The position numbers and the translations under genes were made by a program. From Odiellus spinosus (lineage: Eukaryota > Arthropoda > Arachnida > Opiliones > Phalangiidae): a stretch of DNA of 64,000 nt. Positions 1,881-64,000 of the stretch are shown here, piece after piece; position 1 is the first letter of the stretch, and each line of letters begins with the position of its first letter. The DNA lies in assembly GCA_963920705.1 (NCBI GenBank), contig OY987225.1, positions 16,323,492 through 16,387,491 of the forward strand. Reading direction: 5' to 3'. The notes beneath the pieces are model-generated. The model did not search any database, was not told the DNA's origin, and worked only from the letters and a program-made list of their open reading frames with translations.

Positions 1881-3267
1881 TTTTTTTTTTTTTTTGTTCC
1901 ATTGTATTGTAAAGAGCTAGGGGTCTGCGAACCTTACAGCTCTTGTTACCTACTAATATAGGTGAACAAATAATAGACTAGTGAACAAATAATAGGCTAG
2001 TGAAAAAATAATAGGCTAGTGAACAAATAATAGGCTAGTGAACAAATAATAGGCTAGTGAACAAATAATAGGCTAGTGAACAAATAATAGGCTAGTGAAC
2101 AAATAATAGGCTAGTGAACAAATAATAGGCTAGTGAACAAATAATAGGCTAGTGAACAAATAATAGGCTAGTGAACAAATAATAGGCTAGTGAACAAATA
2201 ATAGGCTAGTGAACAAATAATAGGCTAGTGAACAAATAATAGGCTAGTGAACAAATAATAGGCTAGTGAACAAATAATAGGCTAGTGAACAAATAATAGG
2301 CTAGTGAACAAATAATAGGCTAGTGAACAAATAATAGGCTAGTGAACAAATAATAGGCTAGTGAACAAATAATAGGCTAGTGAACAAATAATAGGCTAGT
2401 GAACAAATAATAGGCTAGTGAACAAATAATAGGCTAGTGAACAATTAGGCTAGTGAACAAATAATAGGTTAGTGAACAAATAATAGTCTAGAATATATAT
2501 GTACATATAGATTTAAGTAATTAAAACAAAGTAAAATTATGGGCAATAAATTAGTTGTATTGTTAGTGAATAAATGAAGCACTCAGACACCCATGAACTC
2601 ACGTAATATCATCTTAAACGTGGGAAAACTTGAGAGGGAAACAATGTCATTAGGGAGAGAATTCCACTTAACGACAGTTCGACGAAAAAAGGAGAACTTA
2701 GAGGCATCGGTGCGTGAGTGCTCCAGACGTAACTTTCTAGAATTACCACGTGTAACAGGGCCCGAAGAGACATATTTAAAAAAGGACTGATCAGGTGACT
2801 GTAAAATTTTATACATTTGCAATAAATCGAGATAAGTACGTCGCGTTTGTGGGGAAACCCAGCAGAGTTCCTGGGTGCGTTCGATATAGGGTAAGCTACG
2901 TAAAGGGAAGATAATTTTCGAGGCCTTTCTTTGAATATTGTCGAAAATGGTAACATCCCCACCAAAATGAGGATTCCAGATATTACTGCCATATTCCAAG
3001 ATGGGTCTAACGAAACTGTTAAATAATTTAGTGATAATTTTAGGGGAAACATTGGAAAAATGTGAACGTAAAGTGGCTATCAACCCATTGGCCCTACTAC
3101 AGACTGAATTAATGTGAGATCGCGACTTAAGGTCGTGAGAAATCACGACACCTAAGTCGCGATAATCCAACCCCCCCCCCCTAATATTAACACCAAACAG
3201 GAAATACGGAGAGGGAAGGGATAAGCTATAGGGTTGCCGCTGAATCGATAGTACCACTTTATTTAAG
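1881..3267 (-). mobile_element. 5'-truncated LINE (non-LTR retrotransposon), minus strand
   Basis: The element reads right to left: a reverse-transcriptase C-terminal region (2583-3267), a 3' untranslated part with an expanded 19-bp repeat, then a poly(A) tail seen as the T-run 1881-1895. The flanks GTTTGTCATCTTCCGTG (left) and GTTCGTCATCCTCTATG (right) look like a diverged TSD and are also units of the 26-bp minisatellite. Short length, an A-tail and loss of the 5' end fit target-primed reverse transcription. The clade (Jockey/CR1/RTE-like) is not settled. Confidence 0.75.
1962..2492. repeat. 19-bp minisatellite (about 28 copies)
   Basis: The unit GAACAAATAATAGGCTAGT repeats almost perfectly. 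The first units have GACTAG instead of GGCTAG, one unit has a G to A change (GAAAAAATAATAGG), and one near 2441 is shortened. It lies within the 3' untranslated part of the LINE, so it expanded in or with that element. Confidence 0.95.
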
Positions 3268-3275
3268 TTCGTCAT
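2583..3275 (-). pseudogene. LINE reverse-transcriptase C-terminal fragment
   Basis: The 230-codon frame shows the pattern seen at the C-terminal end of non-LTR retrotransposon reverse transcriptases: a DLGVVISHDLKSRSHI segment, then FVRPILEYGSNIWNPHF, then the IQRKASKIIF segment. In full elements this thumb-side region follows the YADD catalytic core, which is absent here, as are the endonuclease and any ORF1. The apparent first ATG lies in the flanking repeat, not in the element, so the start is not genuine. A run of about eleven C near 3170 could hide a frameshift. It cannot be an active enzyme. It is oriented away from the glycine-rich frame downstream. Confidence 0.8.
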
Positions 3276-4632
3276 CCTCTATGTTTAATGAAGTTTGGCA
3301 TCCTCCATATTTATTGAAGTTTGTTGTCCTACATGTGTTTTTTTAGATTTGCATCCTCCATGCGTTGTTAAGATTTGCATCGTCCATGTGTTGTTAAGAT
3401 TTGCATCGTCCATGTGTTGTTAAGATTTGCCATCCTCCATGTTTATTGAAGTTTGTCATCCTCCATGTTTATTGAAGTTTGTCAGCCTCCATGTTTATTG
3501 AAGTTTGTCATCCTCCATGTTTATTGAAGTTTGTCATCCTCCATGTTTATTGAAGTTTGTCATCCTCCATGTGTTTTTAAGATTGTCATCCTCCATGTGT
3601 TTTTAAGATTGATTCCTCCATGTGTTTTTAAGATTGATTCCTCCATGTGTTTTTAAGATTGATCCCTCCATGTGTTTTTAAGATTTGCATCTTCCATGTT
3701 TATTGAAGTTTGGCATCCTCCATGTTTATTGAAGTTTGCCATCCTCCACGTTTATTGAAGTTTGCCATCCTCCATGTTTATTGAAGTTTATCATCCTCTA
3801 TGTTTATTGAAGTTTATCATCCTCCATGTTTATTGAAGTTTGTCATCCTCCATGTTTATTGAAGTTTGTCATCCTCCATGTTTATTGAAGTTTGTCATCC
3901 TCCATGTTTATTGAAGTTTGGCATCCTCCATGTTTATTGAAGTTTGCCATCGTCCATGTTTATTGAAGTTTGCCATCCTCCACGTTTATTGAAGTTTGCC
4001 ATCCTCCATGTTTATTGAAGTTTATCATCCTCTATGTTTATTGAAGTTTATCATCCTCCATGTTTATTGAAGTTTGTCATCCTCCATGTGTTTTTAAGAT
4101 TGATCCCTCCATGTGTTTTTAAGATTTGCATCTTCCATGTTTATTGAAGTTTGCCATCGTCCATGTTTATTGAAGTTTGCCATCCTCCACGTTTATTGAA
4201 GTTTGCCATCCTCCATGTTTATTGAAGTTTGTCATCCTCCATGTTTATTGAAGTTTGTCATCCTCCATGTTTATTGAAGTTTGGCATCCTCCATGTTTAT
4301 TGAAGTTTGCCATCCTCCACGTTTATTGAAGTTTGCCATCCTCCATGTTTATTGAAGTTTGTCATCCTCCATGTTTATTGAAGTTTGTCATCCTCCATGT
4401 TTATTGAAGTTTGTCATCCTCCATGTGTTTTTAAGATTGATTCCTCCATGTGTTTTTAAGATTGATCCCTCCATGTGTTTTTTAAGATTTGCAACTTCCA
4501 TGTTTATTGAAGTTTGGCATCCTCCATGTTTATTGAAGTTTGTCATCCTCCACGTTTATTGAAGTTTGTCATCCTCCACGTTTATTGAAGTTTGCCATCC
4601 TCCATGTTTATTTAAGTTTGACATCCTCTTAG
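3268..4632. repeat. 26-bp minisatellite (about 50 copies)
   Basis: The unit is approximately CATCCTCCATGTTTATTGAA plus GTTTGT. Variant units with GTGTTTTTAAGATTGAT recur in blocks near 3580-3690, 4080-4125 and 4420-4500, giving a loose higher-order order. Small open frames across it are by-products of the repeat. Confidence 0.93.
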
Positions 4633-4711
4633 AGAAAGATTTAAACTAATGTTCCAAACGTAAATATAATTTGTATAAAATTTATATCAAATTTAAAGAT
4701 TCAAAAAGCTT

Positions 4712-5563
4712 ATGGAAAGGAACTTTATATTCGCAGATGAAAATTTTGAAGGGGCAGCATCTCTCTATTCGTGGAAAAATATATCAATAAGGATCAAGCG
4801 CCAAAATTCAAGTCCTATGGATCAACATATTAAAGCCTGGCAACGAATTTACCTTTTCACTTTGAAAGCGTCAATGGCTTTCGGAAATAACGCCTTGTTA
4901 TTCGCTCTTAACGAAATAATATCAAACATGGTGGGAAATATCTCCAGATCATATACTTATGGATATAGAAGAGGCTGCGGAGGTGGTGCTTACGGCAGAT
5001 ATGGATACGGTGGGAGCTACGGATATGGGGGGTATGGCGGTCTCGGGGCGATGAGTTACGCGATGCAACCAGTGTATTACTACGTTCCAGTGACTACTGG
5101 CGGTGGAACTATTCAACAAGAAGTGTTTCCGATTGACGGTATTAACGGGTTTACGGGTAGTTTCGGAACAACATTAAGCAATACTGACCTGCTGGAACAG
5201 CTAATAGCGATTATACAAGAAACTATTGATCAAACCGCTACCTATTACTCTAGCGGTGGTGGTGGTGGAGGCGCTAGTGGTGGAGGTACTGGTGGTGGAG
5301 GCGCTGACGGAGGTGGAGGTGCTGGTACAGGAGGCGGAGGTGATGGTACAGGAGGTGGAGGTGGGGAAACCGTCCCAGCTGACGGTGCTGGAGGTGAGGC
5401 AGCGCCGGAAGGTGGTGCTGCTTTAAAAGAAGGAAATAAAGAAACTAGGGTCCAGGAAAGCCTCAGTGACAAGCTTGAGACTACAACGGTCGATGTCGAA
5501 AAAGGTGAAAGTTTAGCGCAGATCAAAGAAATAGTCACCTCATCGGAAAAACCAAACTCATAA
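4712..5563 (+). CDS. Glycine/tyrosine-rich protein, unknown function
   Basis: I do not recognise this protein. The frame of 283 codons has a basic N-terminal part (residues 1-80) with an RIKRQ dibasic site near residue 28, a Gly/Tyr block (about 84-114, GYGGSYGYGGYGG), a non-repetitive middle (about 115-180, with YYYVPV and a LLEQLIAIIQETI stretch), a second block of Gly runs broken by Ala, Thr and Asp (about 182-225), and a charged Glu/Lys tail. Gly/Tyr composition recalls secreted structural or matrix proteins, which is inference. ATTCGCAG just before position 4737 resembles a splice acceptor, so the true product may start in an upstream exon and join in phase 1; no such exon was found, the region upstream being minisatellite. 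A candidate AATAAA lies at 5753. Codon use inside the Gly blocks is varied (GGT, GGA, GGC), which favours a real gene. Confidence 0.6.
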   Translation: MERNFIFADENFEGAASLYSWKNISIRIKRQNSSPMDQHIKAWQRIYLFTLKASMAFGNNALLFALNEIISNMVGNISRSYTYGYRRGCGGGAYGRYGYGGSYGYGGYGGLGAMSYAMQPVYYYVPVTTGGGTIQQEVFPIDGINGFTGSFGTTLSNTDLLEQLIAIIQETIDQTATYYSSGGGGGGASGGGTGGGGADGGGGAGTGGGGDGTGGGGGETVPADGAGGEAAPEGGAALKEGNKETRVQESLSDKLETTTVDVEKGESLAQIKEIVTSSEKPNS

Positions 5564-6479: not shown

Positions 6480-7136
6480 AGATTTTATACGCTGCGCTTT
6501 GAGAGATGTGCCTCTTACCATATCCTCTATAGTGTTGGAAAACCGCAGTATGATTGTAGCGCCATCTATGAGTCGGGGAAAATACGTAGCTTTGACAGCA
6601 CCAGAGAGATGTTCATTATGACTTTCGTAAGTACTAAATAAACAAATTAAACTTTTTTTCTTAAATTAGGAAGCCCAAGCTTTATTAAGAAATTTCTATG
6701 TCCTGAAACGCTTTTTATATTTAAATTTCTACATAAACCAGTCCCTACTATCTAGAAGGAAGCGATAAATGAGGCATGGGCGTATGAATCTTCGGAGGAG
6801 TTACTTACGTCTAAAAATGACGTCAACGCTCTAACGATATAATTCAGGGACTACCTTAAATTTGTAAACAAAAAACGTTTTATAGCTTCGAAAGTAGTTT
6901 AAAACAAAGATTGGGCATCCTAATTTACGAAACTACGTTCAGTTTGTTCATTTAGTCATTTGTAACACCATAATTAACCAATGAAAACAGTGGCAAGCGA
7001 CGATAAGGCTTCAGTGATTACATATGCACTACCGGCTGAACTTTCCCCAACTCGCAAATGGCGCCAGCCGTCTTGCGACTTCACTTTTCTCCTAAGACTC
7101 AAGAGATATATCTCTAAAGCGCAGCGTATAAGATCT
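6480..7136. mobile_element. Long-armed palindromic element (about 657 bp)
   Basis: The left end AGATTTTATACGCTGCGCTT is answered by AGCGCAGCGTATAAGATCT at the right end. Pairing continues inward over about 300 bases per arm with mismatches: AGCGCCATCTATGAGTCGGG answers CCCAACTCGCAAATGGCGCC, and AGGAAGCCCAAGCTTT answers AAAGATTGGGCATCCT. There is no coding capacity. It resembles a foldback-type MITE. Confidence 0.7.
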
Positions 7137-9669: not shown

Positions 9670-9930
9670 TATAACGGACTTTGTCTTGGGCAGTTTGCTG
9701 AAAAGCAAATTTTTGTTTATGATCCTTTAGGGGGGTATAGATTCAACCGAATCGCAGTGGACCGAATCCCATTCATCCCAAAAATAGATAAAATATTAAA
9801 AATCTAGCCCAACGGCGGGTTTCGATTGAATGCGAATTTTATCCCATTCGATTGAAATTTTTTTTTTACTTTATATACGTAGCATTAATTTACAAGCTGA
9901 AACAAATATGAGATATTTCGATGGGTTTTT

Positions 9931-15620: not shown

Positions 15621-15956
15621 TGTTGCTTCCAAAAATTGATAAGCAGGACTCCGGCTAGCTTATATAATGAGAACCGGAAGCTTCACAGTACTGCGCATTA
15701 ATATACCTAAGCTTAAATATAGAACAAGTTTTGCCCTATTTTCAACTCCTCCCCATCTACTCTCTATGTATGAATGCGCCATTTGGCTACTTAAAGGTTT
15801 GCATTTATGGTTAAAATGCATAACATAACGAGAAGCTAATTTTAAAACCAAATTCATAAAGGGAGTTTGTAATTTATTACGCCGCCTACACTTGAAAATA
15901 TCACTTACAGTTAAGATATATCTTATATTTTTCGACGCCTTTCAGGTTTGCGTAGG

Positions 15957-16014
15957 ATGAAGATGACAGGATGGATAAGACCGGTTTTAATCGTCCTCAT
16001 ACTTGGAAATTTTG
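15957..16014 (+). CDS. Exon 1 (signal peptide) of defensin-like gene
   Basis: It encodes 19 codons plus one base. Reading on through the donor gives a 71-codon frame without the cysteine domain; that read-through is not favoured, because splicing restores the exact phase of the Cys-rich exon. Confidence 0.7.
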
Positions 16015-17542
16015 GTACGTTGATTTTTTATAATTTAGCTGGATTCATGGAGATCTTGAACGTCCCACAGAAGGACTATCGACCAATGACATTGGTCTAT
16101 GGTCCTTGTATGGGAAGCTCAGGATTGCCACGAATTAAAGTTTTAAATTTATTTCTAGTTTAATATTTGTTTGTAAAGGTTAGGTCTATTTAAAAGATAA
16201 GGAATCGATAAAAATCACTTGTTGTTAGGTTTCATTCTCCCTTTAAAAATATTCTTGAAGCAAAAACATAGAATAGCCTTTAAATTTATTTTCGTAATCT
16301 CCATGCCAAAAAACGTACTTACAAAACAATTTTAGACACGTTTTTGGTGTTAAAAATAACTTCAAAAGCTTGAATGTAAGAATAAATTCGGGCCAATCAT
16401 ATTATTTCAAGCTTCAGCAGCGCTTGTAATATCCTAACATTAAAAGAATAGGTCGGCAAGGTCTTGGGCATCAAACGCCGGGCTTTTATCTTAATGTTAG
16501 GACATTACATATTGAAGGCTGAAATAATATGTTTGGCCCGAAATTATATCTACATTCAAACTTTTGAAATTAAATCAAACACCAAATTGTTTGAAAATTC
16601 TCGATTACGTTTTTTATTTTTATTTTTTTTTCGAATGGTGAATCCGAAAATAAATTCAAAGGCTGTTCCATTTTTAGCTCCAAGTTTTCCTTTAAAGCAT
16701 GCATCGACTACAATCAGATTAAAGATTATTCATTTTTCTCTTTAGTTCTAGAAGTCTCCTGTCTCTGGAAAGGTTGTCCCATAGTTAATTACAAATGCGC
16801 CCAAACTTGTATGAAGAAGCTCCACACAAAAGGAAGATGCGTCGGTCTTCGATGCGAATGCCTCGACCCAGCGGTAGCTTGGAATGGCCCTCCGAAATAT
16901 TTGCCAATACCAATTCCTTTTCCTCAATTCCCTGGAGGTCCTCCTTTCATGGGATTATCACCGGGAATGTTAGCTGGCGCGGCATTATTCAAGAAAGCCA
17001 AAGCCAAGAAACTGAAGGGAGCAGCTAAAATTTTGGGTGGTAAGGCATTGAAAGCCCACGCGTCGCAATCCAACAGCCGACCAGCAATTCCTCCTCCACC
17101 ACCTCCGCCAATACCGCCGCCACCACAACCTTCTAATCCTGTGCCTCCGCCACCGCAACCACGACCTCGACCTCAAATTTTCAGAAGGCCTCCTCCACCA
17201 CCAAAACAAATGATATACGCCCCACCACCAAAACAAGTTGTCTACTCTCATCCACAATACCAACAGCAAAGTTACACCAAAACTGCGCATTCTCCAGTCG
17301 AAATATACCAGCCACCGCAACTAGGTTACTCAAAAAGACCTTCACAAACTATGACACTCTATTCGAGACCAGACAATACGAGAAACAGAGAGTACAATCC
17401 GGATGTAGATGGCGATAACAGACCGGACGTATTCGAGCATCAAGAAGACGCCGAAGAACGGCATCTGGAATATGAAGATGAAACATCGGACTACTCGTAC
17501 GAGGGTGACTACTATTATTACGAAGATGATGATGAACAATGA
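15957..17542 (+). CDS. Secreted defensin-like (CS-alpha-beta) and proline-rich mosaic protein, two exons
   Basis: Coding exons 15957-16014 and 16746-17542 join in phase 1 through a TTTTG|GTACGT donor and a CTCTTTAG acceptor, giving 284 residues. Residues 1-24 form a signal peptide (hydrophobic VLIVLILGNF core). Cysteines lie at 25, 30, 37, 41, 51, 56 and 58; C37-x3-C41, C51 and C56-x-C58, with C30 as the first, fit the six-cysteine pattern of insect defensins and related peptides (known for the family). Residue 25 is probably near the cleavage site. Then follow a Pro/Gly linker, a Lys/Ala-rich cationic stretch (about 94-125), a proline-rich region (about 132-178) with PPPPP runs, and a tail rich in Asp, Glu and Tyr (about 236-284). 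A secreted, possibly antimicrobial or matrix role is inference. AATAAA signals lie at 17668 and 17684. CCTTTCAG before 15946 suggests an upstream untranslated exon. The second ATG at 15963 is an alternative start. Confidence 0.75.
16746..17542 (+). CDS. Exon 2 of defensin-like gene
   Basis: It begins with two bases completing codon 20 and carries all the cysteines, the cationic, proline-rich and acidic regions, and the TGA stop. A first ATG at 16811 lies inside the cysteine domain and would destroy it, so it is unlikely to be the start. Confidence 0.78.
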
Positions 17543-17667: not shown

Positions 17668-17689
17668 AATAAATAATTTTTGCAATAAA
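17668..17689 (+). terminator. Tandem polyadenylation signals
   Basis: Two AATAAA hexamers (17668 and 17684) lie 125-145 bases after the stop codon of the defensin-like gene. Confidence 0.55.
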
Positions 17690-45200: not shown

Positions 45201-48200
45201 GCGTGATGTCAGTTTTATTTTTCATTTCAATAGAATAACCGAAGAATTTGGCAACCCAATACAAAAAAAAAAAATAATAATTTGGCGAAATGTGATCATT
45301 TGATCAAATTCTGTTGGGATTTTGGAATTTTAACCTTTTGTCACCTAATTTTTTTTTCCTGATTGGGTAAGCAGATTTATTTCGTTACTGTACAGGAGCA
45401 CATCAAAACTAAAAGTAAAACTAACGTCAAACTCTTCAGTAAAAACATCCTTTCTTAATATTAAATTGGGTGCTTGGTGCAAGATCAATTTGACAAGGCA
45501 CGAATAGTCATCTACTTTGATTAATCCCAACTATATGGTCTTCACAATTAAAAATATAGCAAGGGCATCGCCATGAGAAATATGGCAATGGCAAACTTTC
45601 GCGAACAAAACCAAGTACCTTTTTTGATTTTATTAACTTTATGATATGAACCATGAACAAAGGAAATTCTAAATGCGTTTGGCATTATCACATTATGGCC
45701 TTGGGGAAATTGTGCAAAATTTAGAAACACCGTGAAGACAGAAGATAACTTCCGCAAGATAGGTGGTGACATTTTTAATTGAACCTTCTGGAATTTTCCA
45801 AGCTGGACTCCCCGCTGATAATTGATTTGAAGAGAGATAACATCTGCATTCTCAAAGAGAAAAGTTTAAAAATAAATAAAAGACCGGGTTAACGCTTAGA
45901 ATAAGTTATAGTACATGAACCAAAGTGAACTGAGGGAATAGCGCCGCTCTTTGATCAGAATTTATGCACATGAGATTTACTCTATCAGAAACTATGAAAA
46001 GTTGTAATTGGTAATAAATTTTATCCATTACAATGAAAGATCCATAGCTAACCCAACTTAGGTTCTAAGAAGCATGCACTTTAATAAGAAATGACGTAAC
46101 TTACAACCCCTGAGGAAACCTCTGTTAGAGGGCGTAACTGGAGACTGCTATGCCATATAGATTCATGATCATTCCTGGCAAATGTTACGTGACTTCCTGG
46201 GAGAGCTTCCGTATAAGGGAGGGAGAGCTTCCGTGTAAGGGAGGGAGAGCTTCCGTATAAGGGAGGGAGAGCTTCCGTATAAGGGAGGGAGAGCTTCCGT
46301 ATAAGGGAGGGAGAGCTTCCGTATAAGGGAGGGAGAGCTTCCGTATAAGGGAGGGAGAGCTTCCGTATAAGGGAGGGAGAGCTTCCGTATAAGGGAGGGA
46401 GAGCTTCCGTATAAGGGAGGGAGAGCTTCCGTATAAGGGAGGGAGAGCTTCCGTATAAGGGAGGGAGAGCTTCCGTATAAGGGAGCGAGAGCTTCCGTAT
46501 AAGGGAGCGAGAGCTTCCGTATAAGGGAGGGAGAGCTTCCGTATAAGGGAGGGAGAGCTTCCGTATAAGGGAGGGAGAGCTTCCGTATAAGGGAGGGAGA
46601 GCTTACGTATAAGGGAGGGAGAGCTTCCGTATAAGGGAGGGAGAGCTTCCGTATAAGGGAGGGAGAGCTTCCGTATAAGGGAGGGAGGGAGGGCTTCCGT
46701 ATAAGGGAGGGAGGGCTTCCGTATAAGGGAGGGAGAGCTTCCGTTTAAGGGAGGGAGAGCTTCCGTATAAGGGAGGGAGAGCTTCCGTATAAGGGAGGGA
46801 GAGCTTCCGTATAAGGGAGGGAGAGCTTCCGTATAAGGGAGGGAGAGCTTCCGTATAAGGGAGGGAGAGCTTCCGTATAAGGGAGGGAGAGCTTCCGTAT
46901 AAGGGAGGGAGAGCTTCCGTATAAGGGAGGGAGAGCTTCCGTATAAGGGAGGGAGAGCTTCCGTATAAGGGAGGGAGAGCTTCCGTATAAGGGAGGGAGA
47001 GCTTCCGTATAAGGGAGGGAGAGCTTCCGTATAAGGGAGGGAGAGCTTCCGTATAAGGGAGGGAGAGCTTCCGTATAAGGGAGGGAGAGCTTCCGTATAA
47101 GGGAGGGAGAGCTTCCGCATGAGGGAGGGAGAGCTTCCGCATGAGGGAGGGAGAGCTTCCGCATGAGGGAGGGAGAGCTTCCGCATGAGGGAGGGAGAGC
47201 TTCCGCATGAGGGAGGGAGAGCTTCCGCATGAGGGAGGGAGAGCTTCCGCATGAGGGAGGGAGAGCTTCCGCATGAGGGAGGGAGAGCTCCCGCATGAGG
47301 GAGGGAGAGCTCCCGTATGAGGGAGGGAGAGCTCCCGTATGAGGGAGGGAGAGCTCCCGTATGAGGGAGGGAGAGCTCCCGTATGAGGGAGGGAGAGCTC
47401 CCGTATGAGGGAGGGAGAGCTCCCGTATGAGGGAGGGAGAGCTCCCGTATGAGGGAGGGAGAGCTCCCGTATGAGGGAGGGAGAGCTCCCGTATGAGGGA
47501 GGGAGAGCTCCCGTATGAGGGAGGGAGAGCTCCCGTATGAGGGAGGGAGAGCTCCCGTATGAGGGAGGGAGAGCTCCCGTATGAGGGAGGGAGAGCTCCC
47601 GTATGAGGGAGGGAGAGCTCCCGTATGAGGGAGGGAGAGCTCCCGTATGAGGGAGGGAGAGCTTCCGTATGAGGGAGGGAGAGCTTCCGTATGAGGGAGG
47701 GAGAGCTTCCGTATGAGGGAGGGAGAGCTTCCGTATGAGGGAGGGAGAGCTTCCGTATGAGGGAGGGAGAGCTTCCGTATGAGGGAGGGAGAGCTTCCGT
47801 ATGAGGGAGGGAGAGCTTCCGTATGAGGGAGGGAGAGCTTCCGTATGAGGGAGGGAGAGCTTCCGTATGAGGGAGGGAGAGCTTCCGTATGAGGGAGGGA
47901 GAGCTTCCGTATGAGGGAGGGAGAGCTTCCGTATGAGGGAGGGAGAGCTTCCGTATGAGGGAGGGAGAGCTTCCGTATGAGGGAGGGAGAGCTTCCGTAT
48001 GAGGGAGGGAGAGCTTCCGTATGAGGGAGGGAGAGCTTCCGTATGAGGGAGGGAGAGCTTCCGTATGAGGGAGGGAGAGCTTCCGTATGAGGGAGGGAGA
48101 GCTTCCGTATGAGGGAGGGAGAGCTTCCGTATGAGGGAGGGAGAGCTTCCGTATGAGGGAGGGAGAGCTTCCGTATGAGGGAGGGAGAGCTTCCGTATGA

Positions 48201-51200
48201 GGGAGGGAGAGCTTCCGTATGAGGGAGGGAGAGCTTCCGTATGAGGGAGGGAGAGCTTCCGTATGAGGGAGGGAGAGCTTCCGTATGAGGGAGGGAGAGC
48301 TTCCGTATGAGGGAGGGAGAGCTTCCGTATGAGGGAGGGAGAGCTTCCGTATGAGGGAGGGAGAGCTTCCGTATGAGGGAGGGAGAGCTTCCGTATGAGG
48401 GAGGGAGAGCTTCCGTATGAGGGAGGGAGAGCTTCCGTATGAGGGAGGGAGAGCTTCCGTATGAGGGAGGGAGAGCTTCCGTATGAGGGAGGGAGAGCTT
48501 CCGTATGAGGGAGGGAGAGCTTCCGTATGAGGGAGGGAGAGCTTCCGTATGAGGGAGGGAGAGCTTCCGTATGAGGGAGGGAGAGCTTCCGTATGAGGGA
48601 GGGAGAGCTTCCGTATGAGGGAGGGAGAGCTTCCGTATGAGGGAGGGAGAGCTTCCGTATGAGGGAGGGAGAGCTTCCGTATGAGGGAGGGAGAGCTTCC
48701 GTATGAGGGAGGGAGAGCTACAGACCGGGGCAGATCGTATCTAGTGGATGACCAGGAATAGTAAATCCAAAAAGTTCTGTTTAAATTAACCTTATATATT
48801 TGTATATTACTTCAGGATCTGGATATGTATGTAATTAAGTTTTATATGGTAAATACTACCTACATTCGTATATTTATACAAAAACTCAAAAAGTTACAAT
48901 GTTATATAGCCAGAATAATAAGCGTAACCAAACAGCCCCATTTAGCAGGACAAACATTCAGATAAATATAGCGTGTGAATGATATTTAACCTCCTATCAC
49001 AGTTTTAAAACTGTCTTTAGGAAAATGTTACATCAGCGAAGATGAAACCCCTCTCGATTGCGGAATACGAATGACAAAGAAGAGAAGCTGACTATAAAGA
49101 AAGTTTAAACAACAAGTCCAAGTCGCAGGATTATCGTCAGAGAATAAATCACACGGAAGATTTAACAATTCAACAACATTATAACCAAGGACAATTATCA
49201 AGTGATTCAAAGTATCAGAATAATTCTTCCCATGTAAGAGATTCAAGGTCGCAAGTCAATGATTCAAAACAAACTGAAAGTTAAACCGTCATTTTATACA
49301 TCCGCAATGATATCAGAGAGTATTAAAGAAGCGTGAATTTTTGATTGCGCCGCAATGCTTCTTTTCTGTTTCAACAAAGCATGATTTTTAACTTGAGGGA
49401 GAATGCAATGTCAGTTAACACGCCCGATAGAATTTCTAAAGCAGTTTGTTAAGGCGATATGGCTATTATAGTTAATAATGAAGAATATGGGCAGATGTGT
49501 AGTATTAACCAAATTATAATTGAAACCTACTTTAAGCACGATTGATTGATCGATGTGGATTTTAAAATGTAATTTCAAATGGAACTGAATATTTACGACA
49601 GAAAGATAAATTTATGCGTCTATGTCTCTTACGGATGAAAGTAGTCTTTTAATGCATACATAATGACGAATATAAAAATAATTCTATCCAAAGAGCAGTC
49701 AAGAAATTCTCTAAGCAGATCATACGCTAATACATGTCTTAATGTAAAGCAACTTGGGCAACCTAAGCCTTCATATAATCAAAGAATCATCCAGATATAA
49801 TATGAACAAGGAATTTCCTGAAGGAGAAATGGATGCATATAAGCAGTATCAAAATCAACGAAAACCCCATCGCATGTTATTGAAGAAATAAAAACTAGAG
49901 CCCCTCTTGAACTAGTCCATATGAGGACCTTCCTCAGTAATGAGCTAAAGAATAGTTAGAGTTTTTATTCGCTTCATCGATGATTTTACGAGAAAAATAA
50001 CTATATACATTTATTATGACAAAGCTAGCTAGTACCCTATATATGTTACAATTATCACCACCCAATATTCATTTGTTAAAGGCAAGGTAACTCAAACTGA
50101 TCTTTACCAAAGTTGTGTAGTGACACCAACTATCATGACTATCAAACATCTATCAATTGTGTGTTTAATTTACACCTGTGACCCAACATATTTTTCACGG
50201 GTAGTGAAAATTGTAATACCAATATTTGATGAAAACCCAAAATTAAGCATTCCAAAGTTTCAAGAATGCAAAGCCAAGACTAGTTGGAAACTTAAAAGGT
50301 TGTAGACTGATATTGAAATGGAACATTGCGAATGATAGTTTTGAAAATCATGCCAGAAGAGGAGTACAAGTTGAGTGAACTAATACGTACACAACCCAAA
50401 TGAATCGTACTGGCGAACGATTTAATGGAACAGCACTCAAATGCGTCAGAACCCTATTAGAAGAATGCAAGTTACCACGAATCTTCTGCCTTATATACAT
50501 TTATCCACCTCTAAAATAAGACCTTCCTATTTGGAACTTTTTGCAAAAACTTATACGGGAATCAAATAAATTAAAACTGAGATTTTACCCTGAACTACAG
50601 CGTGTAAATTCTTTATTTAAAAGGAATTAAAAACGATTAGCTTCCCAAATCATTCGGGCGTCATCAAGTCTGATGATGCGCCCCTCCCCTGAATGGGCTG
50701 CCGAACTATTCTCAAAAGTCATACATGAAGAGAAACTCTCAGTATTGAAATGGAAAAGATTTCTCTCATTTGATTTGATTTTTTGCCAATATTTCATTTC
50801 CAGGAATGACTGGGACAATTTCCCCCTGGTTTTTAATCTTCTTTATCCTCACGATGACATTACACCGATTGTCATGAGCCGTGGGAAACTTTCCTACTTC
50901 TTGGACGCTAAAGAAAAGATAATTTTTTCGTCAAAATCGCCATCTGTTCTCGTCACTCACAACAAAGCTTCCAAATGTCACAATGTCTGGAAAGTCAGGT
51001 CAACCACCAAAGAGGTAACCCTGTTTTGATATATGTAGATATGATACTTAAAAGGGAGAACGCAACCCAACGACAATTACAATCTTCAAATAATAGGAAA
51101 ATCAAAGCCAATATTCAGGTCGAAATTGATTGTTTAACTTACTCCAAGCGTAGGATTAATACCTGATCTTTGCACATCATTTGATATCTCGCTGTTAAAG

Positions 51201-54200
51201 ATTTTCTGGCAAACTTAAAGGTACCAGAAAATCTGGATTTGAGAATTTAGAATTATACTAAAGAAGATTGCCTAACCTAACCCCTAGGTTAAATGGTTAG
51301 CTAACAAATGACAAGAGTTTTGGTCAAAAGGTAGATCTAAGCCTTTTGACTAGACTTCAAACTTTGGGGAAATGGCAAAATCCAAACTCGCGATCTAAGG
51401 CAGAAGGTGGCCAACCTTTTCAGCTCAAGAGCCAAATTTAAAATTCAAACTAGGTCTTGGGCCGCAAGTTTAAATGAAATACAACGTTCATCTCTAATCT
51501 TTCTTTTTCGGGATGAAGAAACCATTTCTTAGATCCACGCCCGGCTTCCTTCAATTAACGATGTACCAAAATGTGGATAGATACTGCATATCATTTTTAC
51601 CATATGAAGAGAAGCAGACAACGCGAGGCAAATGAAAATGGCAGGGAAAAAGCTTTAAATGTGGGTTGCAATACCATTAACCACAGATTACGTTTGCGTG
51701 CCGCAGTAAAAAAAGACAGTGGGCTGCATGTGTGATACATGTTGGCCACCCCTGATCTAAGGTCAAACATTTATTCCTTAAGGGAGCATCAGCTAAGGGT
51801 ATTTTAACCATCCGCCACATTTGGATGAAGGGGTGGTAGATAGCAACAGTCTTTCAATAAGCGTGTACGTTATTTTGTTAGCTAGTACAGTAATATTACT
51901 GAGATTAAATTATGTGAAGAGAATAATAAATATAAAACTAAGCATTTAATGAAATGATGAACCACTGCAATTGCCATTGAATTGCTCTAAAAATTTAAAT
52001 AGTTTTGAGATTTGTTTTCATTGATATTTTGAGCTCGGTAAATTTTGATATTTTGAACTAACATACATTTGGTTTTAAATGAAGAATTTAAAATTTTTAC
52101 TGTATGAATAAAACGTGCTTTCTCTCATATGATTGGCCAGAGTCTTGTTTTTGACGAGGAATTAAACTCTGGACTCCCGTTAAACCTACTTTACGAGCAA
52201 GTTAAATATCAATCTCTAATATTGGTTTGCATTTTATGTTCCTTATCTAAACAATTGGGAATCAAATTCGAAAATCACAATTGTTGTCGCCTCGCATTCT
52301 GCCTTTAGAAAACTTTTAAGCTCTGTGAATTAAATATGTTAATTTGAGTAGGAGCAAGATTTGACTGGCGATCGGGTAACGAACGCGTCTCAGTTCCGCA
52401 CTTCGTCAATTTTACTAGAAGTCTCGCCTATATCATACCTGACTGGATCTAATTCTTCTAAAACATCTTCTGAAAGCAGCTCTCGTTCAAAGTTTTCCCA
52501 TTTGACGTTCACACCGACTCAAAGCTTTGCTGGTTCGCCCAAGCACTTAAAAATGATTGGTAGAACGCCATCCTACGGCGAACATTCGTCACCCACGTCT
52601 AAAGTGTGTAGTCCTCTTGTGTCAAGTCTCACTCATATGGCTACTTTAAGGTTTGTGGAACAAATATACATTATCGTTGATAATGTGCTCTCTAATATTA
52701 AATTTAAAATTATTACAATACCAAATCAATCAAGTCAATGCCCCAAAACAGGGAAATTATTTTTAAATCAGTCAAATCAATACCAAATCAGTCAAAACAA
52801 TACCAAATCAGTCAAATCTATACCAAATCAGTCAAATCTATACCAAATCAGTCAAATCAATACCAAATCAGTCAAATCAATACCAAATCAGTCAAATCAA
52901 TACCAAATCAGTCAAATCAATACCAAATCAGTCAAATCAATACCAAATCAGTCAAATCAATACCAAATCAGTCAAATCAATACCAAATCAGTCAAATCAA
53001 TACCAAATCAGTCAAATCAATACCAAATCAGTCAAATCAATACCAAATCAGTCAAATCAATACCAAATCAGTCAAATCAATACCAAATCAGTCAAATCAA
53101 TACCAAATCAGTCAAATCAATACCAAATCAGTCAAATCAATACCAAATCAGTCAAATCAATACCAAATCAGTCAAATCAATACCAAATCAGTCAAATCAA
53201 TACCAAATCAGTCAAATCAATACCAAATCAGTCAAATCAATACCAAATCAGTCAAATCAATACCAAATCAGTCAATTCAATACCAAATCAGTCAATTCAA
53301 TACCAAATCAGTCAATTCAATACCAAATCAGTCAATTCACTTCTAAATCAGTCAATTCACTTCTAAATCAGTCAATTCACTTCTAAATCAGTCAATTCAC
53401 CTCTAAATCAGTCTAATCAATACCAAATCTCTAAATGTTTTATAAATTAATATTGAATCAATGATGTCACTAACAAATCGTTGTAATCAGTCAAATTGAT
53501 TTGCACGCTCCGAAAAGTAATGACAGCTTCCTCTATTATAGCACTCAGTGAAAATATGTTTTCCACTAAATTTAACAATAACACAATGGCAAGTGTCTTA
53601 TAGTAGCGGGACATATATCGGACGACTTTTGATCAGTTTTTCTCACTTTTGGCGCTTTACAGTCCGAAGTGACGCTTGAATTGTCAACAGTTTTTAATTG
53701 TTAGTTGATGTCTATATACTGAAGTTAGATGTTAGCTGGATTTGTGGCTGCTAGTTAAAGTGAACTTTGGAATTTAGATTCTTCCGTCATATGACAGAGC
53801 TACGCACTTCATCCCTGAACCTCTAGCAGACCATAGCAGAAGTTTGACAAAGCAGAGAAAGGTCAGATAGCATCATAGCAGATTAATTAGATTATTAGTT
53901 CTTCTTTATTTTAAATACTTGTTAATTTGGAAATGACACATACACTCTCTTCCTCTCAGAATTATTAAATCTATTTAAAGTGAGTTTCTTATGAGTTATG
54001 GATAAGCCATAATACTACCTTACATGAACCAAAGGCTAGAAACGACCCTAGAATAATAACAGCCAACCAAGTATCAAAGTTTTAAAGAGTTCTTTCTAAT
54101 TAAACAGTAGTGATTAACAAAACCCAGTGGCAAAGTTTTGTTCAAATTTTGTTATCCGTTTTTTTTTTTTTTGTTCAATGAACAAAAGTACGCACATAGT

Positions 54201-57200
54201 TAAGTAACGTTATTACTTGAGTATTATTCTAAATATTTATCAATAAATGTAGTTAAACGGTTATTGACAGAACTAGGGCATTGAAAACCCTAAAGATAAT
54301 ATCTGCAATTTTCCAATCTTTAAAGTCGCCTTCTTTTCTAGCTTAGCAGACCACGTTGTACAAAATAAATAGTACAGTCAAAGCTAGGCTGCGTGCATAA
54401 GGGAAGAGCATTTGAAAGGGGCAAGTTTCAGAGCAGATAGAGCCTTTAAACATTACTGAGCTACCTTTCACGTATCTTGCTAGAGTTTATTTGAGAGCGG
54501 GCGACAGTATTTAGAAAACCTCAAGAGATCATCGGTCACACTATATAAATTCCCTATTTCTTACATCTAGATAACCTAGATTACCATGGGATGATGCTTG
54601 CCATTATTCTGAGGATTATTCTTGGCTATTATTGTTTCGCAGCTTCCTACGAACCAAAATTATGAATTTACATTTGGCCTACACCTATAGTGTAAAAGTA
54701 TAGAATAATTTAGGCTTCCCATAATTCTAGATAAAATTAGTTTAAAATAAATTACATGTTTAATATTCTTTTGGTATAATTTAATATTTGTCCTATCTAT
54801 CCACCATATTACAGTGTTTCAATGAGTAACTTTATTATCCTTGACCTTCACCTATAAGTGGAAGAGTATTTAAATAATATCCTTAGCTCAGGAAATAATT
54901 TTTTAGTGTCTACACGAACGCTATAATACCACCTTATAGTACCTGTGTTTGAGTTTAGATAAGAATAGGCGTAGAATCGGTAGTATAGCCATTAGACTTC
55001 GATCTATATTTTGTCCAGATCTTAACTTAGTGTTAGTTACTAGTTAACCATTTAGCCTTGTATTATGTTAGGCGTTCCTACGCGTCGGTCTCGTGCTCCA
55101 ATGCTGTGGTCATTGAACGAGTACTCCTAAGTTTGGATATTTACTCTACAACATCTGGTAAGCTAATTGATAGTCCCTTGATTCGCATATTTTAGTTGAA
55201 ACTCCCCAGTCATACTTACCTTAATTATTGTTTGTACTGGCATATTTCGTATGGCGCATTTGTATACATTAACCCTCATTAGCATTAGGATTATTATTTT
55301 TAATTTTCTAATGTGTTTATTTTTTCATTAAAAATTAAAGATTATTCATTTGTTATCTTTGAATATTTCATACTTTGCACTGGTAGGCCCACTCTCCTAG
55401 AAATCAGTTACAAGCTTGATAATTTTTTAATCATTTTTTTCAGTCGATCGCAGTCTCCTTCAATTAGCGGGGCTTCTTCAGCCACTCACCATAGATTGAA
55501 CTTCGCTTCGCCTTTGGGTTCCAATCGACCTGGCATGGCCTTTAGTCCCAGGGCGTCTCAACACCTATCGAGTCAATTTTCTGAATCATTACTGTACGAA
55601 GTTGGAGTTCCCATCATCCCTGATTTGTGCTTCGAACATGTTTGGACTGACAGATATCTGTAAGTAACTTTCAATGTATATATCTCTCTTGCGGATTATG
55701 ATTATACTAAAATGTTTTGTATTTTATGTTAATTCTAGGTCACCGAATCAAAGTGAAAAGATTTTTTTCACGAGTGACATTTCCGGACAAAACTTTCTAT
55801 GCCTTTTCCTAAAAGAAGAAAAATTACTCAGGTAAGCGGCGTTTATAAATAAACGCGATAGTTGTTCAACTAGTTAAATTTAAGTTTTATTTACAAACAC
55901 TGCATGGCTAGAACCATTAAATAGTTAAATTTAAGTTTTATTTATAAACAATGCATGGTTACAACCATTAATTGAGAAAGCTTTAAATTTTAACAAAATA
56001 AATTTTGACAAACTTAAAATCATTCTAAATTTGTCAAAATTGGAACAAGTATTCTAAATATGGCAAAATTGGAACGAGTATTCTCAATTTGGCAAAATTG
56101 GAACGAGTATTCTCAATTTGGCAAAATTGGAACGAGTATTCTCAATTTGGCAAAATTGGAACAAGTATTCTAAATATGGCAAAATTGGAACGAGTATTCT
56201 CAATTTGGCAAAATTGGAACGAGTATTCTCAATTTGGCAAAATTGGAACGAGTATTCTCAATTTGGCAAAATTGGAACGAGTATTCTCAATTTGGCAAAA
56301 TTGGAACGAGTATTCTCAATTTGGCAAAATTGGAACGAGTATTCTCAATTTGGCAAAATTGGAACGAGTATTCTCAATTTGGCAAAATTGGAACGAGTAT
56401 TCTCAATTTGGCAAAATTGGAACGAGTATTCTCAATTTGGCAAAATTGGAACGAGTATTCTCAATTCGGCAAAATTGGAACGAATATTCTCAATTCGGCA
56501 AAATTGGAACGAATATTCTCAATTCGGCAAAATTGGAACGAGTATTCTCAATTTGGCAAAATTGGAACGAGTATTCTCAATTTGGCAAAATTGGAACGAG
56601 TATTCTCAATTTGGCAAAATTGGAACGAGTATTCTCAATTTGGCAAAATTGGAACGAGTATTCTCAATTTGGCAAAATTGGAACGAGTATTCTCAATTTG
56701 GCAAAATTGGAACGAGTATTCTCAATTTGGCAAAATTGGAACGAGTATTCTCAATTTGGCAAAATTGGAACGAGTATTCTCAATTTGGCAAAATTGGAAC
56801 GAGTATTCTCAATTTGGCAAAATTGGAACGAGTATTCTCAATTTGGCAAAATTGGAACGAGTATTCTCAATTTGGCAAAATTGGAACGAGTATTCTCAAT
56901 TTGGCAAAATTGGAACGAGTATTCTCAATTTGGCAAAATTGGAACGAGTATTCTCAATTTGGCAAAATTGGAACGAGTATTCTCAATTTGGCAAAATTGG
57001 AACGAGTATTCTCAATTTGGCAAAATTGGAACGAGTATTCTCAATTTGGCAAAATTGGAACGAGTATTCTCAATTTGGCAAAATTGGAACGAGTATTCTC
57101 AATTTGGCAAAATTGGAACGAGTATTCTCAATTTGGCAAAATTGGAACGAGTATTCTCAATTTGGCAAAATTGGAACGAGTATTCTCAATTTGGCAAAAT

Positions 57201-60200
57201 TGGAACGAGTATTCTCAATTTGGCAAAATTGGAACGAGTATTCTCAATTTGGCAAAATTGGAACGAGTATTCTCAATTTGGCAAAATTGGAACGAGTATT
57301 CTCAATTTGGCAAAATTGGAACGAGTATTCTCAATTTGGCAAAATTGGAACGAGTATTCTCAATTTGGCAAAATTGGAACGAGTATTCTCAATTTGGCAA
57401 AATTGGAACGAGTATTCTCAATTTGGCAAAATTGGAACGAGTATTCTCAATTTGGCAAAATTGGAACGAGTATTCTCAATTTGGCAAAATTGGAACGAGT
57501 ATTCTCAATTTGGCAAAATTGGAACGAGTATTCTCAATTTGGCAAAATTGGAACGAGTATTCTCAATTTGGCAAAATTGGAACGAGTATTCTCAATTTGG
57601 CAAAATTGGAACGAGTATTCTCAATTTGGCAAAATTGGAACGAGTATTCTCAATTTGGCAAAATTGGAACGAGTATTCTCAATTTGGCAAAATTGGAACG
57701 AGTATTCTCAATTTGGCAAAATTGGAACGAGTATTCTCAATTTGGCAAAATTGGAACGAGTATTCTCAATTTGGCAAAATTGGAACGAGTATTCTCAATT
57801 TGGCAAAATTGGAACGAGTATTCTCAATTTGGCAAAATTGGAACGAGTATTCTCAATTTGGCAAAATTGGAACGAGTATTCTCAATTTGGCAAATTTGGA
57901 ACGAGTATTCTCAATTTGGCAAAATTGGAACGAGTATTCTCAATTTGGCAAAATTGGAACGAGTATTCTCAATTTGGCAAAATTGGAACGAGTATTCTCA
58001 ATTCGGCAAAATTGGAACGAGTATTCTCAATTCGGCAAAATTGGAACGAGTATTCTCAATTTGGCAAAATTGGAACGAGTATTCTCAATTCGGCAAAATT
58101 GGAACGAGTATTCTCAATTCGGCAAAATTCGAACGAGTATTCTCAATTCGGCAAAATTGGAACGAGTATTCTCAATTCGGTAAAATTGGAACGAGTATTC
58201 TGAATTCGGCAAAATTGGAACGAGTATTCTGAATTCGGCAAAATTGGAACGAGTATTCTGAATTCGGCAAAATTGGAACGAGTATTCTCAATTCGGCAAA
58301 ATTGGAACGAGTATTCTCAATTCGGCAAAATTGGAACGAGTATTCTCAATTCGGCAAAATTGGAACGAGTATTCTCAATTTGGCAAAAATGGAACGAGTA
58401 TTCTCAATTTGGCAAAAATGGAACGAGTATTCTCAATTTGGCAAAATTGGAACGAGTATTCTCAATTTGGCAAAATTGGAACGAGTATTCTCAATTTGGC
58501 AAAATTGGAACGAGTATTCTCAATTTGGCAAAATTGAGCGTAATTTCTAGAAATTTTTGAATTAATAATTGTAAATCCCACTTTTTATTAAAGATTTATA
58601 AAAATTGAAGAAAGCAACAATATGGAGAAACTTATTTTTGGTTCAGTTTCCGTTATATCAGCTAGAGATGTTGAACCAGTCAAAGCTCTAAACATGTTAT
58701 TTATTCTTGATGAGATGTCAACATATTCTCTGTATACTGGCCCTATAAAAGTAAGACAATTCAATTCATAAAAAATAGACAAAATGGAGTTGGTTTGAAA
58801 ATATTACGTTTTTCATATGGGTTTTTATTTATATTTTTGTAATTATAACTTGGTGACACGCAGCTAAATCCAAAAGATTTTTCCTCAAAAGATCGAGCAG
58901 AAAAAGTCAATATATAAAAATATAGTTTTGGCACAAACATTTTTTTGCCCTCAAAATGACAAAGACAAATAAAATTCCGTGAAATTATAAGAGGGGTGTA
59001 TTTCAAATAGACACCCACAATTAGCACGATCTCTTGGGAAAAAATTTGATCTATTGTGAAAATTGGTGCTCGTTTCAGAGACTGAAATAAGAAAATTTTC
59101 CTCTTCACAAATTCAAAGTTATCAGACATTTAAAAAATTTATCAGACATTGCTAGATTTCCTGTACCTGTAAGTTATTTTTCTTATTGGACAAATGTCCA
59201 ATGACCCCTTCTCAAAAATAAAAAGTAATGGGTCATTTGAAAAAATTATTAGACAATGTGACTTTGCTTATTTCCGTCCCTGGCTCGGTTTCCTAAAAGT
59301 GATTGTCACATGCCAAAGATAGATCTACGAATCCTGCGCCAGATACAAATGCTACAAAAATTTGGTCATTCCTTTTTTTCTGAAAATTTAAATTACTCTC
59401 CTTAAAAACTCAGTCCTGATAGGAATTTCAAAACCTTGTCGAATATTGTTGAGGAAATTATGTATAGACTCTTTTGAGATTGTACTCACCATTTCAATAG
59501 GTTTGGACAGACTTTATTTGGTTGCGGATCTTTCTTTAAGAAGAAAATAAAAATTACTTTTGGAATTAAAAGACCAGCATCAAAATTAATTTCAAATTTT
59601 TATGCATGTTATTTTTGTAAAGGTGTGCAAGGTGCACATTCCAGGAACATTAGGCATGGTAGACGTTTTACCTAGTGTCAGCCAATGGAGAGATTCGTTG
59701 CTGTCTGGAACTCCCAGGAGAAGCAGCTTAGCGGCAGTAGCCAAAACTCAAAATGCTCTCGAAGTCAAATTTCAAGAAAAAGTTAGTTGTGCCTTTTCAA
59801 TGTCAGTTATCATTAGCCTTTCTATTAAGTGGTTCACAGTCATATCCAAAATAAACTATTTCCTTTTACTGTGGGTTGCTGCATAGAAAAACGATTTCTT
59901 CTGGATGCGACTGTGCCTTTTTAAAAATAATATAACTATAATATGGATAAAATTTTACCCATTGATAAGGTGGTTCAAAAAATAAAATTAATTAAGAAGT
60001 AACAATCGGACCTCAGTTTTGATAAAAACATGACCATTTTCAATGATTTTTAAGTCTACAAATTATATTATTTGAATTAATATAATCACATTTTCCATAA
60101 TTTAAAATTTTAAAATAATACAACTTAAATTTAAATTATTATCTTCAAATAATCGCTTTTTCTGGATAATTTCCAGAGCCATAAGAGTGTGTTCTAGTAA

Positions 60201-62182: not shown

Positions 62183-63439
62183 TACAGGGTGTAAGTAAAT
62201 AAGTGCAATTGTAACCAAATGTGATTTTTCTATGGGTTTAATAAGGTAAAATGCCTGATGGCTAGAAACATTGCAGTTGCACAGATCAAGCGTTGTGATT
62301 AACTAGATAACTTAACTCTGAGACAATTTATTTAACGACTTTAATAATAAAATAATAATTGAATTGAATCGCCAAAGTTGAATCTGTATGGTAAGCAAAT
62401 CAGCCTAAATGTTCAATGTGTCTGCCATCGTGGTGTAGGTACTCTTCGAGGCGACTTTCCAGTTCTTGCAATGCACTTGTAATCATTTGAGGAATGATAC
62501 CATTGATTGCGGCTCGAATACGGTCCTTTAAGTCTTCTGGACCCATCGGTTCTGTTTCGTAAAGGACGCCCTTAACATACCCCACAGGAAGAAATCAAGC
62601 GGGGTAAGGTCATGAGACTGTCCACCTCTACCTATCCAACGGTTGGGAAAGTTGCCGTCCAGCCATTGACGAACATTGACCGCCCAATGTGGTGGGGCTC
62701 CATCCTGTTGAAACCACATGTTGCGAACCACTGCTAACGGCAAAGCGTCTATCGCGTCACTAAACTCGTGACGCAAGAAGTCAAAGTACAGTTCTCCAGT
62801 ATTCGCATCGAAGTAAAAGGGACCGATAATTCAGTTCCCGAGAATGCCAACCCAGACATTTACCTTCCATTGAATTTGATGGTAATGGTGACGTAATAAT
62901 TAGGGATTCTGATGGGTCCAGTAATGCATGTTTACCGTACCATCCCTAAGAGATGTAGCCTCGTTCGAAAACAGCACCTTTTGCAAAAATAGTTGATCGG
63001 GTGAAATTAGGTCACGCATGGTAAGATAAAGGTCTTGCCGTCTTAGGTAATCGTCATCTGTTAAGGCTTGATGGAGGTGGATATGATAGGGCCGGTAGTG
63101 GTGGCGATGTAAAATGGCAAGAACAGTAGCATGGCTTAGTCGAACCTCGCGTGCAACCGATCTACTACTGGTATGAGGATTGGCTTCAAAACGGGCTACA
63201 ATATCCACTTCTCAGTCTTCATTACTGACTACACGGTCTTGCCTACGCTCACGGTCCTGCACGACGAATCCACCGAACTCCAGAAGGTTGTCTCTTATGT
63301 CGGTGAAAGTGCTTCGAACAGGATGGCGTCGATGGGGGCAGCGTTCTGCATAAAGCAGTGGCGTTCGACGTACGTTACCTTGACATTCACCCAAAATAAA
63401 CCTTACGTCCAATTTTTCCTGGTTGGAATAGGCTGGCAT
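62183..63439 (-). mobile_element. Tc1/mariner-superfamily element, minus strand, decayed
   Basis: The left terminus after TA reads TACAGGGTGTAAGTAAATAA, typical of mariner-like ends. A second, separate terminus TACAGGGTGGAAAAGATCAG begins at 62087, so another element may be nested outside. The element contains the transposase remnant described next; its right end is replaced by an inverted second copy. Confidence 0.75.
62400..63439 (-). pseudogene. Transposase, DUF4817 plus DDE_3 type, minus strand
   Basis: The N-terminal part (from 63439, MPAYSNQEKLDVRFILGE) is the DUF4817 helix-turn-helix type; then come HATVLAILHRHHYRPYH, VLFSNEATSLRDG (where the first catalytic Asp appears changed to Asn), MWFQQDGAPPHW (second Asp) and DLTPLDFFLWG (third acidic). 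It is broken by at least two CGA-to-TGA stops, seen by comparison with the other copy, and by frameshifts. The segment between the second and third acidic residues looks shortened. It is inactive. Confidence 0.9.
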
Positions 63440-63465
63440 TCGACTACAACACTGGTCTTTCTACG

Positions 63466-64000
63466 ATAAGAGACAACCTTCTGGAGTTCGGTGGGTTCGT
63501 CTTGCAGGACCGTGAACGTAGGCGAGACCGTGTAGTTGATAATGAAGACCGAGAAGTGGATATTGTAGCCCGTTTTGAAGCCAATCCTCATACCAGTAGT
63601 AGATGGGTCGCACACGAGGTTGGACTAAGCCACGCTACAGTTCTTGCCATTTTACATCGCCACCACTACTGGCCCTATCATATCCACCTCCATCAAGCCT
63701 TAACAGATGACGATTACCTAAGACGGCAAAACCTTATCTTACTATGCGTCACCTAATTGCAGCCGAACCACTATTTTTGCACAAGGTGCTGTTTTCGGAC
63801 GATGCTACATTTCATAGGGATGGTACGGTAAACTGTCATAACATGCACTACTGGACTCATCAGAATCCCTATTGGTTACGTCACCATTACCATCAAATTC
63901 GAAGGAAGGTAAATGTCTGGGTTGGCATTCTTGGGAACCGAATTATCGGTCCCTTTTTCTTCGATGCGAATATTACTGGAGAACTGTACTTGGACTCTGT
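63466..64000 (+). pseudogene. Transposase copy 2, plus strand, head to head, 5'-truncated and cut by window edge
   Basis: It starts at the IRDNLLEFGGFV segment, so about 48 N-terminal codons are missing. The CGA codons that are stops in the other copy are intact here (EDREVDIV, GNRIIGPFFF). A frameshift lies near 63733. The first catalytic segment reads FSDDATFHRDG, with the Asp kept. It ends at the window edge before the second catalytic Asp. Confidence 0.88.

Follow-up and report, generated by a model that had tools for sequence, protein, structure and literature searches.

Arthropod defensins are usually short free peptides, the C-terminal extension of royalisin-type defensins is likewise short, and the gamma-thionin heads of plants carry eight cysteines. 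In scorpion defensin genes the mature peptide lies unsplit in exon 2, behind a single phase-I intron, and the same arrangement is described for other arthropods and for molluscs (PMC6435467, partial text). Several described proteins join a domain of this general kind to something longer. Art v 1 of mugwort is a secreted chain in which an N-terminal defensin-like head is followed by a C-terminal Pro-rich region (PMC6723817, partial text), the penaeidins, stylicins and arasins of crustaceans are antimicrobial chains that combine a Pro-rich with a disulfide-rich part (PMC11678341, partial text), and royalisin-type hymenopteran defensin 1 is an arthropod defensin that bears a C-terminal extension (PMC2853521, partial text). 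No criteria unify the "invertebrate defensins" as a class, according to the portion of PMC5116183 consulted.

How does the locus described here compare? It lies in a window of 64,000 nucleotides (the whole stretch of DNA analysed, G000:C1:16323492-16387491) of a 443,074,358-base genome assembly in 286 contigs. Like the defensin genes of arthropods, such as scorpion BmKDfsin, it has a predicted signal exon, one phase-1 intron and a mature domain in exon 2 with a six-Cys array. Unlike the ancient-type arthropod defensins, it has a predicted mature chain of 259 aa rather than ~37-45, carries a 224-aa tail and goes unrecognised by the Pfam model PF01097. It shares with Art v 1 the order of head and Pro-rich region in a secreted chain; the plant defensin-polyproline proteins differ in carrying Hyp-linked glycans, and neither a Lys/Ala block nor an acidic end is described for them in the partial text of PMC6723817. 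The likeness to these plant proteins is presumably convergent, and the gene can be regarded as their animal counterpart. It resembles the penaeidins, stylicins and arasins in its combination of parts, whereas in those peptides the Pro-rich part comes first, the Cys patterns are different and the lengths run from 37 to ~117 aa (PMC11678341, partial text). Similarly, it resembles royalisin-type defensin 1 in being extended at the C-terminus, but that extension is lineage-specific to bee and wasp defensin 1 and is not described as Pro-rich or acidic in the available part of PMC2853521. In open-access PMC text, searches turned up no CS-alpha-beta protein of an animal whose tail combines Lys/Ala, Pro-rich and acidic parts; this is weak evidence that none has been described. 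With the ancestral exon pair kept and a 224-residue, charge-segregated, predicted disordered tail encoded in the same exon as the head, the gene shows a possible route to a large tethered or self-neutralised defensin without exon shuffling.

Gene structure

A two-exon gene for a secreted protein is very probably real. The coding part of exon 1 (15957..16014, + strand) comprises codons 1-19 and the first base of codon 20; its product is a hydrophobic leader, most of the predicted signal peptide, and it ends at the donor TTG/GTACGT. The intron (16015..16745, +) is 731 nt long, of the GT-AG type and in phase 1, with a pyrimidine-rich stretch ahead of its acceptor AG at 16744-16745. Exon 2, including the stop codon (16746..17542, +), encodes the end of the signal peptide, the CS-alpha-beta head and the entire tail. 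An earlier note on this DNA had predicted an in-phase splice of 16014 to 16746, and the donor, the acceptor AG and a joined product of 284 aa that is free of internal stops are all confirmed in the sequence.

The reading frame of exon 2 runs for 265 codons to its stop with no earlier stop, and the two other forward frames contain 11 stops apiece; a single one of 5000 Markov-2 sequences of equal composition was also open. Two AATAAA polyadenylation signals (17668..17689, +), at 17668 and 17684, follow ~130-140 bases 3' of the stop. When both strands of the window were searched for a leader followed by a donor, three candidates emerged: two are the nested ATGs of exon 1, in phase 1, and the third is in phase 2. 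The tandem-repeat scan reported no repeat in 16746-17542, and in the genome the exon-2 DNA matched itself only. Exon 2 contains two donor-like sites, at 16874 (score 5/7) and 17040 (6/7). No kappaB-like motif was found within 1 kb upstream on either strand, an absence that is uninformative because the motif is too short to say much either way. Finally, we note an acceptor-like CAG at 15943-15945, 11 bases 5' of the first ATG, in a frame that is open back to 15915, so an additional 5' exon is possible.

The cysteine array and its predicted fold

Cysteines occupy residues 25, 30, 37, 41, 51, 56 and 58 of the joined protein. Alignment with the paralogues described below suggests that the leader is cleaved after about residue 25. 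Because Cys25 falls at this presumed end of the signal peptide, the mature head (residues 26-60; 16763..16867, +; net charge +5) probably has six cysteines, at residues 30, 37, 41, 51, 56 and 58. An eight-Cys or extra-disulfide design employing the seventh cysteine was considered and is less likely, since residue 25 aligns with the place of signal cleavage in the paralogues. Translation of the window in six frames contains a single copy of the array C-x6-C-x3-C-x9-C-x4-C-x-C, at 16775; in 100 Markov-2 sequences of window length, a loose form of the pattern averaged 0.00 matches and its core 0.02.

A model of 41 residues, computed without an alignment, places a helix at residues 32-45, across both cysteines of the CxxxC motif, and strands at 49-52 (with Cys51) and 55-58 (with Cys56 and Cys58); its mean pLDDT is 72.2 and its pTM 0.44. 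A second model, of 103 residues with part of the tail, has a mean pLDDT of 55.5. The helix and sheet anticipated by the earlier note appear in the shorter model; the longer one keeps the helix and loses the strands. Among the 38 matches that Foldseek returned for the head against solved structures, ranks 1-26 are scorpion toxins, toxin-based mimics or defensins, the best being tamapin, a scorpion potassium-channel toxin; none has an E-value of 0.001 or below. On this modelling a CS-alpha-beta fold is likely.

Defensin-like paralogues and the placement of the head

Does the head belong to a family within its own genome? A genome search with PF01097, the arthropod-defensin model, gave 13 matches, seven of them above the cut-off. 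We kept the 11 that have a full or near-full cysteine array and set aside L021, whose match contains fewer than 3 Cys whichever strand is read, and L023, whose array is partial. The corresponding search with the gamma-thionin model PF00304 found seven places, all below its cut-off: six of the retained exons, and the window gene itself. L011 and L012 are standard ancient-type defensins that form a tandem pair (C5:20864276, 20867475), the former matching scorpion BmKDfsin3 (6.4e-13) and micasin (4.4e-15). L017 and L019 (C8:18267511, 18287909) form a pair ~20 kb apart that shares with L022 and the window gene the short last loop C-x4-C-x-C, and the near-identical L015 and L016 (C7:940743, 1627927) stand ~0.69 Mb apart. 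The open frames of the paralogues measure only 45-66 aa. Stretches of their sequence found no match in open-access PMC text, and three pattern stretches on viral contigs include no relative.

The gene structure recurs in these paralogues. In every one of the 11, an in-frame AG in phase 1 lies 23 to 35 nt ahead of the first domain cysteine, and in seven it stands 29 nt before that cysteine, as it does in the window gene; most have several in-frame AGs, some in other phases, and the AG nearest the expected place was counted, so the acceptor count left some room for choice. For five paralogues (L012, L013, L018, L020 and L022) a leader exon with a phase-1 donor was located; for the other six no leader exon passed within the 3-6 kb examined; near L017 there is a strong leader with donors in phases 0 and 2 only.

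A Pfam scan of the head as 44 residues gave PF14866, a long-chain scorpion-toxin model, as the best match (1.7e-4), followed by PF00304 (2.3e-4); both are CS-alpha-beta models and both matches fall below their cut-offs, PF00304 with 21.8 bits against 25.1. PF01097 did not report the head at E 10, either in the direct Pfam scan or in the genome search. With phmmer against solved structures, the best E-value was 0.069, to 2RU0, which is the bacterial actinomycesin (PMC8819291, partial text). A profile of the 11 same-genome exons, hand-trimmed to their predicted exon starts and built with the window gene left out, scores the head at 30.3 bits. None of 2000 shuffles with the cysteines fixed reached this score (highest 21.1), nor did any of the 1995 full shuffles that were scored (highest 17.8), and across 2113 ORFs of the window the profile gave the gene an E-value of 1.7e-6 and the next ORF 2.2. 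The paralogues themselves score 31.0-69.5 bits when each is left out in turn from a profile that includes the window gene. Outside the cysteines, the head is identical to the paralogues at 3-7 of 23-24 positions, L013 being closest, and such low identity suggests an old or fast-changing paralogue. A genome search with head, linker and Lys/Ala block returned the gene itself and one further match, at E 1.45, which is L013 and a true defensin-like exon.

Given the profile score and the phase-1 acceptor present in 11 of 11 paralogues, the head and the gene structure are, as judged by sequence comparison, those of an arthropod-defensin paralogue. A spliced signal peptide in front of a domain of the cystine-stabilised helix/sheet type had been predicted in the earlier note, and the paralogous exons with their phase-1 acceptors, the profile and the helix-strand-strand model of moderate confidence all support it. 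We therefore file the gene as a defensin paralogue within the CS-alpha-beta superfamily and not as a standard arthropod defensin, because the cut-off of PF01097 is missed and because the predicted mature product, at 259 aa, is not short.

A segmented, charge-separated tail

The tail comprises residues 61-284, which is 224 residues and six times the length of the head. It begins with a hydrophobic Pro/Gly linker (residues 61-93; 16868..16966, +) that has 11 Pro among 33 residues and a net charge of +1, continues with an Ala/Lys block (residues 94-125; 16967..17062, +) of 10 Ala and 9 Lys in 32 residues, net +9, and then with a Pro-rich block (residues 130-230; 17075..17377, +) in which 35 of 101 residues (35%) are Pro and 7 are Arg, also net +9. 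It ends in an acidic Tyr-rich segment (residues 231-284; 17378..17539, +) with 22 Asp/Glu and 8 Tyr in 54 residues, net -18. The Lys/Ala, Pro and acidic blocks named in the earlier note are thus borne out as a description, with charges of +9, +9 and -18. Over its whole length the tail has a net charge of +1, which the head (+5) raises to +6 for the mature chain of 259 residues, in which there are 17 Tyr and 49 Pro. The acidic block is a real segmentation: 22 of the 24 Asp/Glu of the tail lie in the last 54 residues, and none of 5000 shuffles matched that count in any 54-residue window. Pro codons are mixed (21 CCA, 17 CCT, 10 CCG), unlike a fresh repeat expansion.

The Lys/Ala block had been likened to an antimicrobial peptide in its own right, and this is weakened as far as a separate helix is concerned: 2285 of 5000 shuffles of the block reach its helical hydrophobic moment, and the 103-residue model gives it low confidence and no helix. 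The acidic end had been proposed to neutralise the cationic part as a propiece. Its charge (-18 against +18) fits neutralisation, but a removable propiece is made less probable, since the protein contains no furin motif R-x-K/R-R and its dibasic places (residues 43, 102, 107, 166 and 216, the last two followed by Pro) do not fall close to where the acidic block begins. Nor does the protein contain an N-glycosylation sequon. When the tail (226 aa, residues 59-284) was used as a query against the genome at E 0.1, it found itself only, in a search whose low-complexity filtering may hide weak matches; as far as searched, such a tail is not found on other defensin-like genes of the genome.

Proposed function and alternatives

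We propose that the gene encodes a defensin-derived host-defence protein with built-in retention and a neutralising tail, and we hold this reading at slightly less than even confidence, since the head can be identified with far more certainty than the tail can be given a role. The protein would be secreted, lose its leader by cleavage near residue 25 and persist as an undivided product of 259 aa. Like related defensins, the CS-alpha-beta head (+5) would attach to anionic surfaces, microbial or otherwise. The tail would be a disordered polyampholyte in which the Lys/Ala and Pro-rich part (+18) is set against the acidic Tyr-rich end (-18). As a charge buffer it could partly neutralise the cationic parts during storage or secretion, and as a tether it could retain the head on a secretion, cuticle or similar matrix, so that the head would not diffuse as a free peptide. 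We infer that tether and charge buffer are the most likely roles of the tail. The short paralogues of the same genome offer natural controls for its function.

Alternatively, the product might be a structural or gland protein, belonging to cuticle, egg coat, silk or glue, with the head serving only as a stable knob and the Pro/Tyr tail working by cross-linking or charge association. We consider this not very likely. The 17 Tyr and 49 Pro of the mature chain, the 8 Tyr in the acidic 54 residues and a tail six times the head's length point towards it, and so, weakly, does the lack of a kappaB-like motif in 1 kb upstream. Yet the six cysteines and the helix spacing are preserved in the head, as is a net charge of +5, its 30.3 bits are close to the score of the weakest paralogues (31.0), and the scan of 16746-17542 reports no tandem-repeat array. 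Were the product a gland or cuticle protein, a defensin fold would have been recruited to a structural role.

An unlikely reading is that of a precursor of several antimicrobial pieces (the defensin head, a Lys/Ala helix and a Pro-rich peptide) that stays inactive until the acidic propiece is cut off. It is consistent with block charges that nearly cancel, with the existence of crustacean antimicrobial chimeras of Pro-rich and Cys-rich parts (PMC11678341, partial text) and with the acidic propeptides of hymenopteran antimicrobial peptides (PMC2853521, partial text). Against it stand the missing R-x-K/R-R and the presence of just five dibasic places, 166 and 216 followed by Pro, as well as a Lys/Ala block whose amphipathicity does not exceed that of its shuffles and in which no helix is modelled.

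It is quite improbable that the head sits on a self-associating polyampholyte, in which the oppositely charged Pro/Tyr-rich tails of neighbouring molecules would attract one another and a secretion or surface layer, in which the protein is condensed or cross-linked, would display the heads. If true, this would amount to an immobilised antimicrobial coating made from one gene.

We regard as very unlikely that the tail lies outside the normal product, with splicing inside exon 2 yielding a short defensin and most of the long frame being non-coding. The donor-like sites at 16874 and 17040 and the 45-66 aa frames of the paralogues would agree with this, but the frame runs on for 265 open codons to a stop and two polyadenylation signals, openness of this kind arose in one of 5000 Markov-2 sequences while each other forward frame has 11 stops, and the Pro codons are mixed and not copies of one repeated unit. 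Finally, a channel-acting or venom-type CS-alpha-beta protein, to which tamapin as the top Foldseek match, the long-chain scorpion-toxin model as the top Pfam match and the short C-x4-C-x-C loop might point, is the least likely reading, since the toxin scores are all below cut-off or insignificant, the short loop is common to paralogues L017, L019 and L022, and we know of no channel or venom CS-alpha-beta toxin that features a low-complexity tail of 224 aa.

Mitochondrial gene order

The earlier note had assumed an insect source. Contig C286 (16,074 bases) is the mitochondrion, and on it (L037, L038) COX1 directly abuts COX2 with no trnL2 between them, while trnL2 (taa) adjoins ND1. In the partial text of PMC2194727 the order cox1-L2-cox2 is a pancrustacean mark, and L1-L2 by nad1 is usual in chelicerates and myriapods. 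The abutting COX1 and COX2 and the trnL2 beside ND1 correspond to the chelicerate/myriapod order of that source, and the DNA is probably not from an insect; a derived insect in which trnL2 has been relocated is a less probable source. On C286, trnL1 and trnL2 are ~870 bases apart, and trnQ and trnI lie beside trnL1 on the minority strand; the order departs from the plain ground pattern and no named order was matched. Two more short trnL(taa) calls, at 6637-6690 and 9672-9725, look spurious. Separately, nuclear contig C17 contains several partial COX1 copies with TGA and TAG stops, which probably represent mitochondrial insertions clustered in the nuclear genome.

The remainder of the window

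The window holds 191 ORFs of at least 58 aa outside its satellites, and 117 of these were given to Pfam; besides the head, they gave weak transposase and helix-turn-helix matches and one match to ANAPC1 at 0.0034. Rfam and ARAGORN found nothing in the window. Long satellites occupy 46199-48719 (22 bp unit), 52716-53429 (20), 56022-58536 (29), 3258-4628 (26) and 1962-2491 (19). Since 22, 20 and 29 are not divisible by three, the satellites with these units have long open reading frames in all three frames of one strand. Transposase pieces, with weak helix-turn-helix and transposase Pfam matches, lie on both strands at ~62403-63998; from the look of the protein, we take them to be Mariner/Tc-like. 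At 4697-5563 (+), 11 kb upstream of the defensin-like gene, an open frame of 288 aa with Gly/Tyr-rich and Gly-rich parts has no notable Pfam match and may be an exon from a further secreted protein of low complexity.
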